A program made the translations under genes and the position numbers. The notes under the pieces are model-generated. The model was not told the origin of the DNA and made no database searches. It worked only from the letters and a program-made list of their open reading frames with translations. A DNA stretch of 64,000 nt from Verrucomicrobium sp. GAS474 (GTDB taxonomy: Bacteria > Verrucomicrobiota > Verrucomicrobiia > Methylacidiphilales > GAS474): NCBI RefSeq assembly GCF_900105685.1, contig NZ_LT629781.1, positions 2,418,001 through 2,482,000 on the forward strand, read 5' to 3'. Positions 4,339-8,827 of the stretch are shown here, piece by piece. Position 1 is the stretch's first letter. Each line of letters opens with the position of its first letter.

Positions 4339-4415
<77 letters not shown>

Positions 4416-4428
4416 ATTTCGACGGTTT

Positions 4429-4472
4429 AAAACGCCCTCGGAGCCTCTTAAAACAAGGTTCCGGGGGCTTTT
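4429..4472 (+). terminator. Probable terminator after tRNA-fMet
   Basis: GCCCTCGGAGCCT pairs, with two G:U pairs, with AGGTTCCGGGGGC around a TTAAAACA loop, followed by TTTTCG. The same stem sequence in a better-conserved form ends the gene near 61.99-62.03 kb. Confidence 0.6.
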
Positions 4473-4537
4473 CGTTTGCTGAGGTAGGGTAAGTCGTTCG
4501 AAGGCTGGTTTTGCCGAAAACGAGGCTAGGTAGGGAA

Positions 4538-4570
4538 GGAAGTGTCCTCAAGGTGTCCTCCGCTTTTGGG
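4538..4570. repeat. Dispersed repeat, copy 1
   Basis: First of three copies of a short repeat whose core is AAGTGTCCTCAAGGTGTCCT, itself a near tandem duplication of GTGTCCTC. Copies 1 and 2 also share CCGCTTTTGGG at the right end. A GAGGCTAGGTAGGGAAGG stretch stands just left of it and recurs in variant form near 5275, 6338 and 6979. Confidence 0.85.
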
Positions 4571-4630
4571 CTATGACGTAGCTCTTGCTCTCTGTATCTT
4601 GACGGTTAATCCAAAGAGAGAGATTTGAGT

Positions 4631-4870
4631 ATGCGGATCAACCTGAAAAAGCCCTTAAAGGGCAAATTCGCTATTTTGGATCTCAAATGCCGGGATGGTG
4701 CGATTATTAGGGGCGTCGTTATCGATGGTTCCGGAGCAACTTTGGGGATGCTTGTTGGTGGTCATACTGGCGTCGAACCTGTTCTCTCTTTCAACTCCGA
4801 AGATATTGTCGCCTATCGTCTACGGGGAATAGCTAGCTGGCTGGGACTAGCGAAGTGGCATAGCACGTAG
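4631..4870 (+). CDS. Small protein of unknown function in tRNA-adjacent island
   Basis: 79 residues from ATG 4631 (MRINLKKPLKGKFAILDLK), preceded by an AGAGAGAG stretch that can serve as ribosome binding site; an in-frame TTG lies two codons upstream. The sequence alternates charged and hydrophobic residues (DGAIIRGVVIDGSGATLGMLVGG) and looks like a small beta-rich domain; no signal peptide or membrane segment. It sits between repeat copies 1 and 2. I do not recognise the family. It could be a real small gene or a conserved scrap of a mobile element. Confidence 0.45.
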   Translation: MRINLKKPLKGKFAILDLKCRDGAIIRGVVIDGSGATLGMLVGGHTGVEPVLSFNSEDIVAYRLRGIASWLGLAKWHST

Positions 4871-4874
4871 GGCT

Positions 4875-4907
4875 GGAAGTGTCCTCAAGGTGTCCTCCGC
4901 TTTTGGG
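4875..4907. repeat. Dispersed repeat, copy 2
   Basis: Same core as copy 1, identical from GGAAGTG through CTTTTGGG (33 bp). Confidence 0.85.
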
Positions 4908-4910
4908 GGA

Positions 4911-4926
4911 GTTGCAGCGCTGCAAC
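4911..4926. repeat. Perfect 16-bp palindrome
   Basis: GTTGCAGCGCTGCAAC equals its own reverse complement and lies 3 bp after repeat copy 2. It could be a dimer-binding operator or a recombination site; nothing else nearby decides. Confidence 0.6.
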
Positions 4927-5290
4927 TGGCAGCCAAGTTTCCATACGCCAGGGTCTTCTGTTGGGTCGCCGTACCCCATTGCGAGTCTGCGAGAACCAGT
5001 ATGCGTGGACATAATCTGTTTCGAACAGACCGCGCTGGATCGAGTTGAGGTTGATGTAGTATTTCCCGAGGCGATGTCTGGGATCGTTTGAGTCATAACT
5101 TGTCGTCATGACTGGCGAGGCGTGTCAAGTCAGCGAGGGTTAGGTGCTTCCTCAAAAGCTGCTCGGAGGAAGCTATCTAAGCTTTCTAAAGGCTCCTACG
5201 CTGCTCTGAGAGGCGCTTTCTTGAGGCGAGCCTATCCGTCCAGGCGATCTGACGTAACCCGTTTCGACGAAACGGAGGCTAAGTAGGGAG

Positions 5291-5315
5291 GGAAGTGTCC
5301 TCAAGGTGTCCTCCG
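5291..5315. repeat. Dispersed repeat, copy 3
   Basis: The same 25-bp core (GGAAGTG to CTCCG); the right flank differs from copies 1 and 2. A variant GAGGCTAAGTAGGGAGG lies directly to its left, as in copy 1. Confidence 0.85.
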
Positions 5316-5358
5316 AGTACAGAGAGGGGGACGCAAAGCTCATTCGAGAGCCCTTCGG

Positions 5359-6261
5359 TCACTTGATGTCGAGTTGAGCCTGGGAAAGCTTCTCTACCGT
5401 AGGAATGTGATCGGGTGAGGTTGCATCCAGTCTCAAGAGAAAGGTCCCCTCGTTGGTCGTGACCCAAATCTGAACAACGGTTGGTGAAACCCATCGAATT
5501 TTCAAAAGTCCCAGACGTAAGAGATGCCGGGTCTCGGGGTCCAACTTGCTGTGTTCTGCTGCCAATGAGGAAAGCAGGTCGAGCGAAGTTTGCTGCCACT
5601 GTTTCGAAGCCGTGTCGTAGGTGAATAGCCAGAAATAGATGTTTCCGTTATCCGGGGCATCACTGAGGAGGCAATAGGTCGATGTCGGGTCCCATGTCGC
5701 TAACGATTGCCGGTGGACTGTGTTTCTAGTGAAGATCGGTTGGGTCCTTGTGGTCGTTTTGAATTGGATTTGCCAATTGCTTTCCTCATCGATTCGTTCG
5801 AACCACTCAACATAGGACTGCCCATTGGGTGCGTATTGGGTCACCGTGTTGGTGTTTCCGCTCGGCATCATTAGGCCAGCGAGTGAGCGCAGAGAGAGGA
5901 CTGACAGAACGCTGATTAGGACGATCTTTACCCATCGTCTTTCAGTGCTAGGAGAGCGTTTCAATCCTAGCGTCAGCCATCCAGCTAAGAACGGGAACAG
6001 AAAGAATACGATGGAAGGGCCGAGCGTGTAGCAGAGTGCCGTGGGTATTTGGGAGAGGACTGTTTTCATCCCGTACCCCTTCCAAGTGCTGATGTAATAC
6101 TTAAATTCCACTGCGAAGTTGGAGACGACTAGCAGGAAGAAAATCGACGTGAGCAACCACCTTCTTCGCGGAGACAAGCGACGAAGGCCCATTCCCAGGC
6201 CGAAACACGTTGCTATGACTGCGAGGATCGCCAGAATAGGTTGGATAAGGCTGGATTTCAT
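5359..6261 (-). CDS. Membrane-anchored protein of unknown function
   Basis: 300 residues. The N-terminal half has about four hydrophobic helices (IQPILAILAVIATCFGLGMG; WLLTSIFFLLVVSNFAV; YTLGPSIVFFLFPFLAGWLT; IVLISVLSVLSLRSLAGLMM) separated by Arg-rich loops. After about residue 135 the sequence is soluble and beta-rich, with many Trp/Thr/Gln residues (QIQFKTTTRTQPIF; YFWLFTYDTASKQWQQ; VVQIWVTTNEGTFLLRL), suggesting a periplasmic or cytoplasmic sensor-like or beta-propeller-like domain. It lies in the tRNA-adjacent island and has no operon partner. I do not recognise a family. Codon usage is less GC-biased than the chromosome, consistent with acquisition. Confidence 0.6.
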   Translation of the reverse strand: MKSSLIQPILAILAVIATCFGLGMGLRRLSPRRRWLLTSIFFLLVVSNFAVEFKYYISTWKGYGMKTVLSQIPTALCYTLGPSIVFFLFPFLAGWLTLGLKRSPSTERRWVKIVLISVLSVLSLRSLAGLMMPSGNTNTVTQYAPNGQSYVEWFERIDEESNWQIQFKTTTRTQPIFTRNTVHRQSLATWDPTSTYCLLSDAPDNGNIYFWLFTYDTASKQWQQTSLDLLSSLAAEHSKLDPETRHLLRLGLLKIRWVSPTVVQIWVTTNEGTFLLRLDATSPDHIPTVEKLSQAQLDIK

Positions 6262-6296
6262 TAGAGATGCGTTGGAGGAAGAGGACGGGGCTTTCC

Positions 6297-6470
6297 TGGG
6301 CCTACGCTGCCCATCGTAGAGGCTTTTGAGAGGCGAGGCTGGCTAGGGAAGGGGAGAGGCTTTTGCATCGTACAGCCTGTAGGATTAGTCGGAGAGCTAT
6401 TTCGAGCTACAAATAGATTGTCCTTTGATGCGACTGCACGTAGCTCTTAAGAATGAGCCAAACCCTTACC
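6297..6470. repeat. Long imperfect direct repeat, left copy
   Basis: This block resembles 6940-7118 along its length. Shared landmarks in order are: a hairpin CTACG(C/A)TG-CC-CATCGTAG followed by AGAGG; GCGAGGCT; GAGCTACAA; CGTAG(C/T)T(C/A)TTAAG-like sequence; and ATGAGCCAAACCCTTA(C/T)CTG. In the right copy the final ATG starts the WYL-like gene; here it opens a decayed frame. Confidence 0.75.
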
Positions 6471-6920
6471 TGCGATTGCTTGCTGCAAGGGGTGGGTTCG
6501 CTTTGGTGCGCTAGGGCTTGTTCTCGTCTCTCTAGCCGCAATCTGCGTGGATCACGTCAAAGGAATGGAGTGGCAGCAAAAGCGGATTATGCGTCAGCAG
6601 GAAGCGTTTGCTCCGTCCCCTGAATTGGGCGACTCGCTTGGCTGATTGATCGTCAATTGGTTTTGGACGATCCCATCGGCGTGGAGGAGTATCGCTTTGC
6701 GAAGGACGGCGTAGTTAGCGCCAGCGTTGGGCGAAGGGTGATGCTGTGGCTGGTCCAGTCTTCACGTGGAGAATGCGAGGCGGTTGGCTTCAGATTCTCG
6801 ATGAACACGAAAAGGTGGTCGATGAACTGCGCTTTGTTGTTCGCAAAGGAAAGATGGTCTTGGCCGTTCAACGCGATAGCGGGAAAATCCAAAGCTTCAG
6901 CATATCGCCCTCATTGCCCT
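6453..6920 (+). pseudogene. Decayed coding remnant (probably two fused remnants)
   Basis: The ATG at 6453 begins MSQTLTCD, like the WYL-like gene at 7100 (MSQTLICG), but the similarity stops after a few codons. A second frame then reads a hydrophobic segment (FGALGLVLVSLAAICVDHVKG) and GMEWQQKRIMRQQEAF before a stop near 6644. Downstream, frames must be changed at about 6745 to join EEYRFAKDGVVSASVG to TWRMRGGWLQILDEHEKV and VVRKGKMVLAVQRDSGK, ending near 6920. Pieced together it looks like a small membrane-anchored protein with a soluble tail that has suffered frameshifts. Family unknown; the interpretation rests on residue pattern alone. Confidence 0.4.
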
Positions 6921-6939
6921 GATGCTCAAGCCTCCTCCT

Positions 6940-7118
6940 TGAGCCTACGATGCCCATCGTAGAGGACTTTGGAGCGGCGAGGCTACCTGAGGGCAAGGGA
7001 TGGGCTTGGAGCAGCGTGCGAAGCCTTTGGGTTTTGGACGAGAATTGTTTGAGCTACAATGGGGTTGTTCTTTAGAGGCTACATCCGTAGTTATAAGCAA
7101 TGAGCCAAACCCTTATCT
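6940..7118. repeat. Long imperfect direct repeat, right copy
   Basis: Second copy of the block at 6297-6470. Its hairpin is perfect (CTACGATG-CC-CATCGTAG). A TACAAT hexamer at about 7051-7056 may serve as the -10 of the WYL-like gene that starts at 7100 inside the repeat. Confidence 0.75.
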
Positions 7119-7396
7119 GTGGCGCAATCAGAGATCGAAAGCTGATTAGTTTTTTCTACAAGGACGGAGAAAGGGTAGTAGAGCCCTACTTGGTAGGACT
7201 GAATGAGAAAAACCATGTCGAATTGGTTGCATGGTTCGTCCGGGGTTATAGCAAGAGCGGTCGTGGCATGGCTTGGAAACAGTATCTTCTAAGCGAAATG
7301 ACTTCGATTCGGGTCTTGGATGAAGAGTGCGGGCCCCGTCACTCGGACTATAATCCGAACGACTCTCGGATGAGCCAAATCTATTGCCGAGTGTAA
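7100..7396 (+). CDS. Stand-alone WYL-like domain protein
   Basis: 98 residues starting MSQTLICGAIRDRKLISF. The pattern AIRDRKLISFFYKDGERVVEPYLVG matches the start of WYL domains (AI..R..v.f.Y...gE..vePY.lg), and the tail (WKQYLLSEMTSIRVLDE, then acidic/aromatic HSDYNPND) matches their end, but there is no helix-turn-helix before it. WYL domains sense nucleic acid or nucleotide ligands and often regulate phage-defence genes. The Mrr-like nuclease gene begins 60 bp downstream on the same strand, so the two are probably a transcription unit. Family assignment is from sequence pattern only; the short length makes it an orphan ligand-binding module or a domain-swapped relic. Confidence 0.6.
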   Translation: MSQTLICGAIRDRKLISFFYKDGERVVEPYLVGLNEKNHVELVAWFVRGYSKSGRGMAWKQYLLSEMTSIRVLDEECGPRHSDYNPNDSRMSQIYCRV

Positions 7397-7456
7397 TCTG
7401 CCTGTGTTCTGTGCGTGATCCTTCACCGACCGTGTTTATAAAGAGAGGAAGAGATA

Positions 7457-8404
7457 ATGGATAATCCACGCATTGCACTTTTCGATAAGTGGTGGCCGAT
7501 TCATATAGGAACCGAACAAATGTTGCTGGATGCGGATGATCCTGATGTGTGGTCACGTAATCTTGGTGATCCTATTTTTAAGGAGTCAGGTCGATCTAAT
7601 GGTAAGCGTTATTTTTATATAGACGACACACGTGCCAATCGTGAAGTCCATCGCTTAACGCAGTACCAGACTTGCGCGATCTGCAGAAAAGCGATGACGC
7701 AGGTATCAGATATTGAGGATGAGGTTCTGCTGCTCTGCACTGATTGTGGGTATTGGGGGGGAAGAGGATTTCGTGAGTGGAATAGTCATCTTCACTCGGT
7801 GCCGCTGCGTGGTGTGATAGGGCGATACAAATCTCTTCTAGATCTTGATGAAGCATCAACCGACTATCTTGTTAGCCACTTAAGACGTTATCCGGAGGCA
7901 ATGACGCAAATTTCGCCCTTTCGAGCAGAGAAATTTGTTGTCGATCTATTGAAGGACTATCTTGGTTGTGAAGTGCAAGCGTTAGGCGGACGCAAGGATG
8001 GTGGTGTCGATGCATACATCTTGGCCAACGATAAAATTCGAACGATTATCCAGATTAAGTGGCGCGAAACAAGAAAGGGGGCGGAAAGCGTTTCAACTGT
8101 TCGTGAAGTTGCAGGTACGTTGCTCGCGCGTGATGTGCCAAACGGTATCATTATCTCTACACGTGAGCGATTTTCAAATGATGCAAAAAAGGAGGCCGAA
8201 TACATTTCTAGCCGTTCTGTTCAAGGTCTTGGCGAGCTGAGTCTGTCCCTTTATGATTACCATACGATTCTCGATATGTTGCAAATCTCAAATGCTAAGC
8301 TCGCTGATCGATGGACTCCGAAGAAGTTAATGGAACTTCATGATAAATTTTGTGTTTTCGATGGTGCGGCGATGATTTCTGAAGATTACATCTCAAATCA
8401 TTAA
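7457..8404 (+). CDS. Zinc-ribbon Mrr-like restriction endonuclease
   Basis: 315 residues from ATG 7457, behind a GAGGAAGAG ribosome binding site. Residues about 75-105 form a zinc ribbon: CAIC, then after about 20 residues CTDCG. From about residue 152 a PD-(D/E)XK nuclease core of the Mrr type follows: the helix Glu in SPFRAEKFVVDLLKDYLG, the catalytic Asp in GGRKDGGVDAYI, and the QIK triad element in TIIQIKWRE, then a long helix and GIIISTRERFS. Mrr-family enzymes cut modified or foreign DNA. With the WYL-like gene just upstream and the island context this is a plausible phage-defence pair. Codon usage is clearly AT-richer than the chromosome. No methylase is present, which fits a type IV-like, modification-dependent enzyme but does not prove it. 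Confidence 0.75.
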   Translation: MDNPRIALFDKWWPIHIGTEQMLLDADDPDVWSRNLGDPIFKESGRSNGKRYFYIDDTRANREVHRLTQYQTCAICRKAMTQVSDIEDEVLLLCTDCGYWGGRGFREWNSHLHSVPLRGVIGRYKSLLDLDEASTDYLVSHLRRYPEAMTQISPFRAEKFVVDLLKDYLGCEVQALGGRKDGGVDAYILANDKIRTIIQIKWRETRKGAESVSTVREVAGTLLARDVPNGIIISTRERFSNDAKKEAEYISSRSVQGLGELSLSLYDYHTILDMLQISNAKLADRWTPKKLMELHDKFCVFDGAAMISEDYISNH

Positions 8405-8827
8405 CTCTACGACGCTTCCTTTCAAAGCTACTTTGGTCGTTAGTTAGTCTTTTTGGATTTCCTATAAATTGCAGTTTCGCCGACGTGTCGAGCTGAACCT
8501 CTTTGTCAGCCATGCCATGTACGTGCGCCGAAAGCCGTTTCATGACGGGGCCCTGAGTGAGAAAGTCAAAACCACTTGTGTCCCGCGCGACAATGTGGAG
8601 GTCTTGGACTGTAACCACGAGAGAGATTGTACGAGAACAGGTGCCTTGTTCCTGCCGATTACGTTTGCACAAAAGGTGCGAGTCGCTTTTGTAGCTACGC
8701 TTCGAATGCCCGCTTTTCGATAAAAGGGGACATTCGCGAGGGAGGTCTTTTCTATGGGGGATTGCTGAACCAGAAGGAGGATGATGTTCGAGTTGTATTG
8801 AAGGGAAGGATATTCTATAAACAATAG
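8405..8827. other. Intergenic end of the island; no convincing gene
   Basis: 423 bp between the nuclease gene and the heparinase-like gene. Open frames exist on both strands (84 codons at 8469-8723 plus; about 90 codons minus) but neither shows a domain I recognise. The right 40 bp contain the promoter of the next gene. Confidence 0.45.
8793..8821 (+). promoter_or_regulatory. Sigma-70-type promoter of the heparinase-like gene
   Basis: TTGTAT at 8793-8798, a 17-bp spacer, and TATAAA at 8816-8821. The ATG at 8828 is only 6 bp past the -10, so the transcript would be leaderless or nearly so unless a later start is used. The following ACAATAG recurs near 30590 and, as ATAATAG, near 23886. Confidence 0.6.

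Follow-up and report, generated by a model that had tools for sequence, protein, structure and literature searches.

The window, by which the whole analysed stretch of 64,000 nucleotides is meant, belongs to a genome of 3.76 Mb in a single contig. Two open reading frames, both on the + strand, form the locus described here: a stand-alone WYL-like protein of 98 residues is encoded at 7100-7396 and is followed, after a gap of 60 bases, by a zinc-ribbon nuclease of the Mrr type, 315 residues long, at 7457-8404. Size, order and spacing of the two frames, as given in an earlier note made from the sequence alone, are confirmed by the ORF reading. The region of the nuclease start is purine-rich (AAAGAGAGGAAGAGATAATG); the purine-rich stretch at the WYL gene start is weaker. 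No terminator-like site was called between the two genes, and scans for sigma-70 promoters and for terminators gave nothing above chance level. Co-transcription of the pair is suggested by the layout, namely by the shared strand, the 60-base gap and the lack of a terminator-like site in between. Genome-wide scans found one match to the Mrr catalytic domain (Mrr_cat) and one small-WYL match, so that the sole genes of both kinds in the genome are neighbours; the Pfam WYL model, PF13280, has zero matches in the genome-wide scan at E <= 0.01.

The relationship of the 98-residue protein to the WYL family was evaluated by profile comparisons. The match to PF13280, a Sm-like domain, covers residues 6–72 (7115-7315, + strand) with an E-value of 0.0056 and 17.1 bits, and taken alone falls below the curated Pfam cut-off of 21.8 bits; the PADLOC WYL model is matched with E 1.4e-6, and an NCBIfam scan gave no match. 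A family alignment includes 15 small-WYL members, the window protein among them, to which the relatives are 23–38% identical: PF13280 is matched by 10 of the 15 at E <= 0.05, the lowest E-value being 2.8e-5. When the profile of this family is compared by hhalign with one built from E. coli YfjR and five plasmid proteins, six WYL regulators in all, 66 columns are aligned, with a probability of 95.4 and an E-value of 1.9e-8. In an unrelated control, the small-WYL profile against the nuclease alignment, E is 0.85 over 1 column, i.e. no alignment is obtained. The WYL identity claimed by the earlier note, while sub-threshold for the single protein, holds in the comparison of family profiles, and on these grounds the protein can be accepted as a divergent WYL module. 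The exact W, Y and L residues are dispensable for this call, since the eponymous residues are described in PMC4012209 as not strongly conserved.

The small-WYL subfamily features a GW(R/K)xF-like motif and, in the closest members, a C-terminal tail of the Y-N-P-N-D type. Two positions, candidates for the lining of a ligand groove, tend to be basic, R25 (K or R in 14 of the 15 members) and K60 (basic in 12 out of 15); near the tail, an R of the window protein lies one column off the R found in 13 of the 14 other members. The absence of a DNA-binding domain, also part of the earlier claim, is borne out: Pfam gives no match, to a helix-turn-helix or otherwise, besides WYL at residues 6–72, and in a protein of 98 residues this match leaves little space for one. 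PDB sequence searches with the WYL protein gave nothing convincing, and single-sequence AlphaFold models of the two proteins, with mean pLDDT of 40 and 36, are unreliable.

In the 315-residue protein, Mrr_cat (PF04471) is matched at residues 151–251 (7907-8209, + strand), with E 1.5e-13. Residues D181, G182, G183 and D185 (DGG.D), together with K201 and R203 (K.R), are invariant across nine aligned nuclease proteins; D185 and K201 are presumably members of the catalytic set of the family. The CxxC...CxxC ribbon spans residues 73–97 (7673-7747, + strand), where the translation reads CAIC (73–76) and CTDC (94–97); the description of the protein as a PD-(D/E)XK nuclease with a ribbon is correct. 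In the PDB, the nuclease profile finds the restriction endonuclease AspBHI, of solved structure, at 5.5e-7, while the single sequence gave nothing convincing. The PD-(D/E)XK core with DGG.D...Q.K is shared with Mrr_cat endonucleases such as AspBHI, from which the window nuclease is set apart by its N-terminal ribbon region. The best PADLOC match is mREase_IV (7.5e-5), and several other Mrr-like models match as well; in PHROGs only one unnamed family is matched. Cleavage of modified DNA is just a candidate specificity for this enzyme.

Matches to the nuclease are present in 8 of the 387 phylum genomes searched, besides the window's own, and cover the catalytic part alone. The closest ribbon-Mrr homologue is a plasmid protein from Tolypothrix/Microchaete (H13–H15), 27% identical, in which the Mrr core is aligned and CAIC...CTDC corresponds to CPFC...CNSC. 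No close relative was found in scans of phages, viral contigs and genome contigs: contigs of 84,980 species gave a single short match (34%, to a Patescibacteria bin) in a scan that uses a single protein query and exact short peptides, and is sensitive to close relatives only. With no close relative of the nuclease in these scans, conservation is hard to judge.

Both genes lie in an AT-rich accessory island of about 4.4 kb (4416-8827), with a GC content of 0.50 against 0.63 for the window. GC is 0.48 for the WYL gene and 0.45 for the nuclease gene, and their GC3, 0.56 and 0.40, compares with 0.82–0.84 in two flanking genes. For the pair as a whole GC is 0.457, a value equally low in 0.16% of the 1305-base windows tested; outside 4416-8827, the lowest 1305-base window has 0.539. 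Both genes are then AT-richer than their surroundings, as had been noticed earlier, and an imported, AT-rich origin of the pair is supported. The location of the pair beside a tRNA gene, also noticed, holds in part: tRNA-Met(CAT), at 4339-4415 on the + strand, is 2.7 kb away from the pair, but its 3' end is where the AT-rich island starts. Homology to two genomes of the same genus (G001 and G002) stops a few bases past tRNA-Met. In G002 (contig C204; L066, 4522-5775) a phage-type integrase (PF00589, E 3.4e-8) is found directly 3' of the same tRNA-Met; in G001 the frames that follow are high in GC. Among the larger ORFs of the island itself, none was recognised as an integrase.

Several repeats are associated with the island. 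A 24-nt repeat occurs in three copies within its first kilobase (4539-4562, 4876-4899, 5292-5315), where none is expected. At a second site, 2 Mb away (about 6132-6325 of L057, minus strand), the 45 nt at the 3' end of tRNA-Met are present, along with about 150 nt almost identical to the island start; the displaced tRNA 3' end and the shared 150 nt resemble att sites, and may mark a family of tRNA-Met elements. A longer repeat, of about 180 nt, involves the segment upstream of the WYL gene, including its start codon (6936-7119, + strand), which is 74% identical to 6294-6472. This first copy ends with the same ATGAGCCAAACCCTTA start-codon context as the WYL copy. Downstream of this copy no frame resembling WYL was recognised, the one at 6453-6623 being unlike WYL by eye; the repeat was considered as a possible mark of a second, lost WYL gene. 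Judging from these sequence features, the island seems to have undergone accretion and decay at an integration hot spot, tRNA-Met. Integration hot spots at tRNA genes are a usual home for accessory and defence genes, and also bring unrelated genes side by side.

The occurrence of the two genes elsewhere was evaluated by searching for the WYL protein in 142 relatives, 387 phylum genomes, 345 genomes of another class, plasmids, phages and viral contigs, and for the nuclease in the 387 phylum genomes, plasmids, phages, viral contigs and genome contigs. Small-WYL matches are present in 16 of the 387 phylum genomes, the window's genome counted, and in 12 of 72,556 plasmid records. In a joint scan of 96 loci, both genes are found in five loci only, all covering the window itself, while WYL alone is found in 58 and the nuclease alone in 11. 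After removal of repeats and of two canonical WYL regulators (L074, L076), the 58 loci reduce to 37 places: 16 from the 387 phylum genomes, 9 more from the 345 genomes of the other class, 11 from plasmids and 1 from a phage (one of five Bradyrhizobium plasmid matches and one of two phage matches were inspected). The earlier note had stated beforehand that the lack of conserved adjacency elsewhere would count against its candidate defence pair, and no such adjacency was found: a nuclease partner is present in the flanks of none of the 37 other small-WYL places, and a small-WYL partner in none of the 11 other Mrr-like nuclease places, the flanks being about 1.5–8 kb, less at contig ends, so that a more distant partner would escape. 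Around the ribbon-Mrr homologue of the Tolypothrix plasmid, 8.6 kb contain no WYL gene. A recurrent two-gene WYL-Mrr defence system is not supported.

Genes next to small WYL genes were examined at 19 places (L027, L030-L032, L034-L043, L045-L047, L090, L091), where the WYL proteins have no evident signal peptide, as judged by eye. At five of the 19 the adjacent gene on the same strand encodes a DNA-processing enzyme; scanning was limited to informative-looking neighbours, and the fraction is accordingly a lead rather than a statistic. The Aliarcobacter plasmid pCNAC48 (L027) features an operon-like order, composed of SbcD, a SbcC-like ATPase, the small WYL, AAA_13 and a NucC-like DUF6602 protein. 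Its AAA_13 ATPase matches the PADLOC candidate PDC-S06 (E 3.1e-275), and the run may be a defence operon that includes a bare WYL subunit. On the Deinococcus plasmid pDrdII, WYL is followed by an OLD-like ATPase-TOPRIM and by a PD-(D/E)XK-like protein. Genes for RecD2, in genome G163, and for a UvrA-like ATPase, in Caballeronia, adjoin the small WYL gene on the same strand; in G539 a RecJ gene is at least 341 bases upstream, again on the same strand. An Exo_endo_phos protein is also beside the WYL gene in G163 and G542, and in Rhodococcus an OLD-like ATPase is near it, on the opposite strand. No comparable DNA-processing neighbour was found at the remaining loci of the 19. Cell-surface genes surround the small-WYL locus of Natrinema; read by eye, G195 has a pilin-like frame next to the WYL gene, and G280 a response regulator. 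Surroundings differ among the four closest orthologues of the WYL protein, all from one genus (G163, G195, G539, G542), which argues against a single fixed WYL partner.

The combination of WYL and Mrr domains is already known: WYL fusions to Mrr-like restriction endonucleases (REase) were already noted in 2014 by Makarova et al. (PMC4012209), and the coupling of ligand sensing to effectors is proposed in the same source. These fusions, compared here by name only, tie together the same two domain types within one protein, while two separate genes are present in the window; literature searches found no two-gene arrangement of a small WYL and a Mrr. The direct control of an enzyme by WYL, put forward in the earlier note, has published precedents in these fusions, in Cas13d-WYL1 and in Pif1-WYL. 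RspWYL1, a separate protein, directly boosts Cas13d of type VI-D CRISPR (PMC6547453); it resembles the situation described here as a stand-alone WYL protein acting on a nuclease, and differs in its target, which is an RNase, and in two additional domains, a ribbon-helix-helix and, at the C-terminus, one for dimerisation. Pif1 is reported to depend crucially on WYL for its activity and for ssDNA binding (PMC9964779), and PafBC is activated by ssDNA via its WYL domain (PMC11804915). BrxR-type regulators share with the locus described here the WYL domain and a link to defence islands and to type IV restriction, but act on transcription through proteins with a winged HTH and a dimerisation domain, neither of which was found here (PMC9122601). 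The DNA-binding domain within the same protein, which defines WYL transcription factors such as BrxR, CapW and PafBC, is absent from the 98-residue protein.

The observations at the locus (two genes, the domain families to which they belong and the island around them) may be read in different ways. The reading tentatively preferred treats the pair as a small accessory module for restriction, where the WYL protein would bind ssDNA or a nucleotide, and assist or gate the nuclease. The island carrying it would be a decayed one that had integrated at tRNA-Met. The 315-residue protein would act as a Mrr-type DNA endonuclease, with its N-terminal zinc ribbon possibly helping to grip DNA; the bare WYL (Sm-like) module, produced from the same short operon, would serve as an accessory subunit and not as a transcription regulator, recruiting or gating the nuclease and itself binding a nucleotide ligand or the ends of single-stranded DNA. 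That the WYL protein binds nucleic acids and acts on the nuclease, and that the function is defence, is proposed by analogy: PafBC, Cas13d and the WYL-Mrr fusions are the precedents for both the accessory, non-transcriptional role of WYL and the restriction role of the nuclease. The domain calls, the core residues of the nuclease and its AspBHI match, the adjacency of two genome-unique genes, the conserved basic WYL positions, the tandem DNA-processing neighbours of relatives and the published WYL precedents are consistent with this reading. Against it are the occurrence of the pair at no second locus, the Tolypothrix homologue devoid of WYL, the differing surroundings within one genus, the lack of a close relative of the nuclease, the low-pLDDT folds, the absence of a promoter above chance and the decay of the island. 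If the WYL protein gates the nuclease, the pair would amount to a restriction module of a minimal sensor-effector kind, in which the direct control of enzymes by WYL domains could be tested in a simple case; Cas13d-WYL1 and Pif1 are the examples found of such control.

About as likely, the two genes, one for a Mrr-type restriction enzyme and one for a small WYL protein, may be independent of each other and have become neighbours by chance, as part of the cargo of the island at tRNA-Met. The pair is missing from every other locus examined, and the 24-nt repeat in three copies, the att-like tRNA 3' end 2 Mb away and the 180-nt repeat are signs of accretion, all of which fit chance neighbours. 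These have to be weighed against the shared strand, the 60-base gap and the purine-rich region ahead of the nuclease, as well as against the fact that each gene is the sole representative of its kind in the genome. Were this explanation true, the locus would be a caution against inferring systems from one adjacency in an accretion island.

The upstream WYL protein might instead restrain a nuclease able to cut the host, to be released by a nucleotide or ssDNA made by a phage. In many toxin-antitoxin pairs the small gene comes first, which is also the order seen here. WYL regulators restraining defence genes are known (PMC9122601); yet the Tolypothrix ribbon-Mrr homologue has no small WYL gene upstream and literature searches found no WYL antitoxin, and such an antidote role is regarded as improbable. 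It is just as doubtful that the small WYL acts in trans with RecD2, RecJ or SbcCD-like enzymes, independently of the adjacent nuclease, as the RecD2, RecJ, UvrA-like and SbcC-like neighbours in other genomes might indicate: a patchy distribution, with presence in so few genomes of the phylum, and contexts varying within one genus fit poorly with a core repair factor. That the WYL protein teams up with a separate DNA-binding partner to act in transcription is very improbable: WYL domains are mostly joined to DNA-binding wHTH domains (PMC4012209, PMC9122601), but no helix-turn-helix was found in the WYL protein and no gene for a DNA-binding partner was recognised next to it.

A wider reading, rather unlikely as a whole, is that WYL proteins of about 98 residues with a Y-N-P-N-D-type tail represent a portable ssDNA or nucleotide sensor subunit, encoded by a separate gene, which would directly control unrelated DNA-processing machines: the Mrr nuclease in the window, and SbcC-like, OLD-like, RecD2, RecJ and UvrA-like enzymes elsewhere.

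Two further observations concern small WYL proteins in general. At some loci (L003, L005, L008-L010, L013-L015, L092-L095), segments resembling a signal are seen by eye at the N-terminus, and exported WYL modules are possible; several of the proteins with such segments feature, again by eye, a lipobox-like C or a start that resembles a twin-arginine motif (RRGF). Finally, a relative of the WYL family is encoded by two records of huge uncultured phages, LR745206.1 (634,780 bases) and LR756502.1 (642,428 bases); in the former (L096), it is located inside a 300-residue frame.
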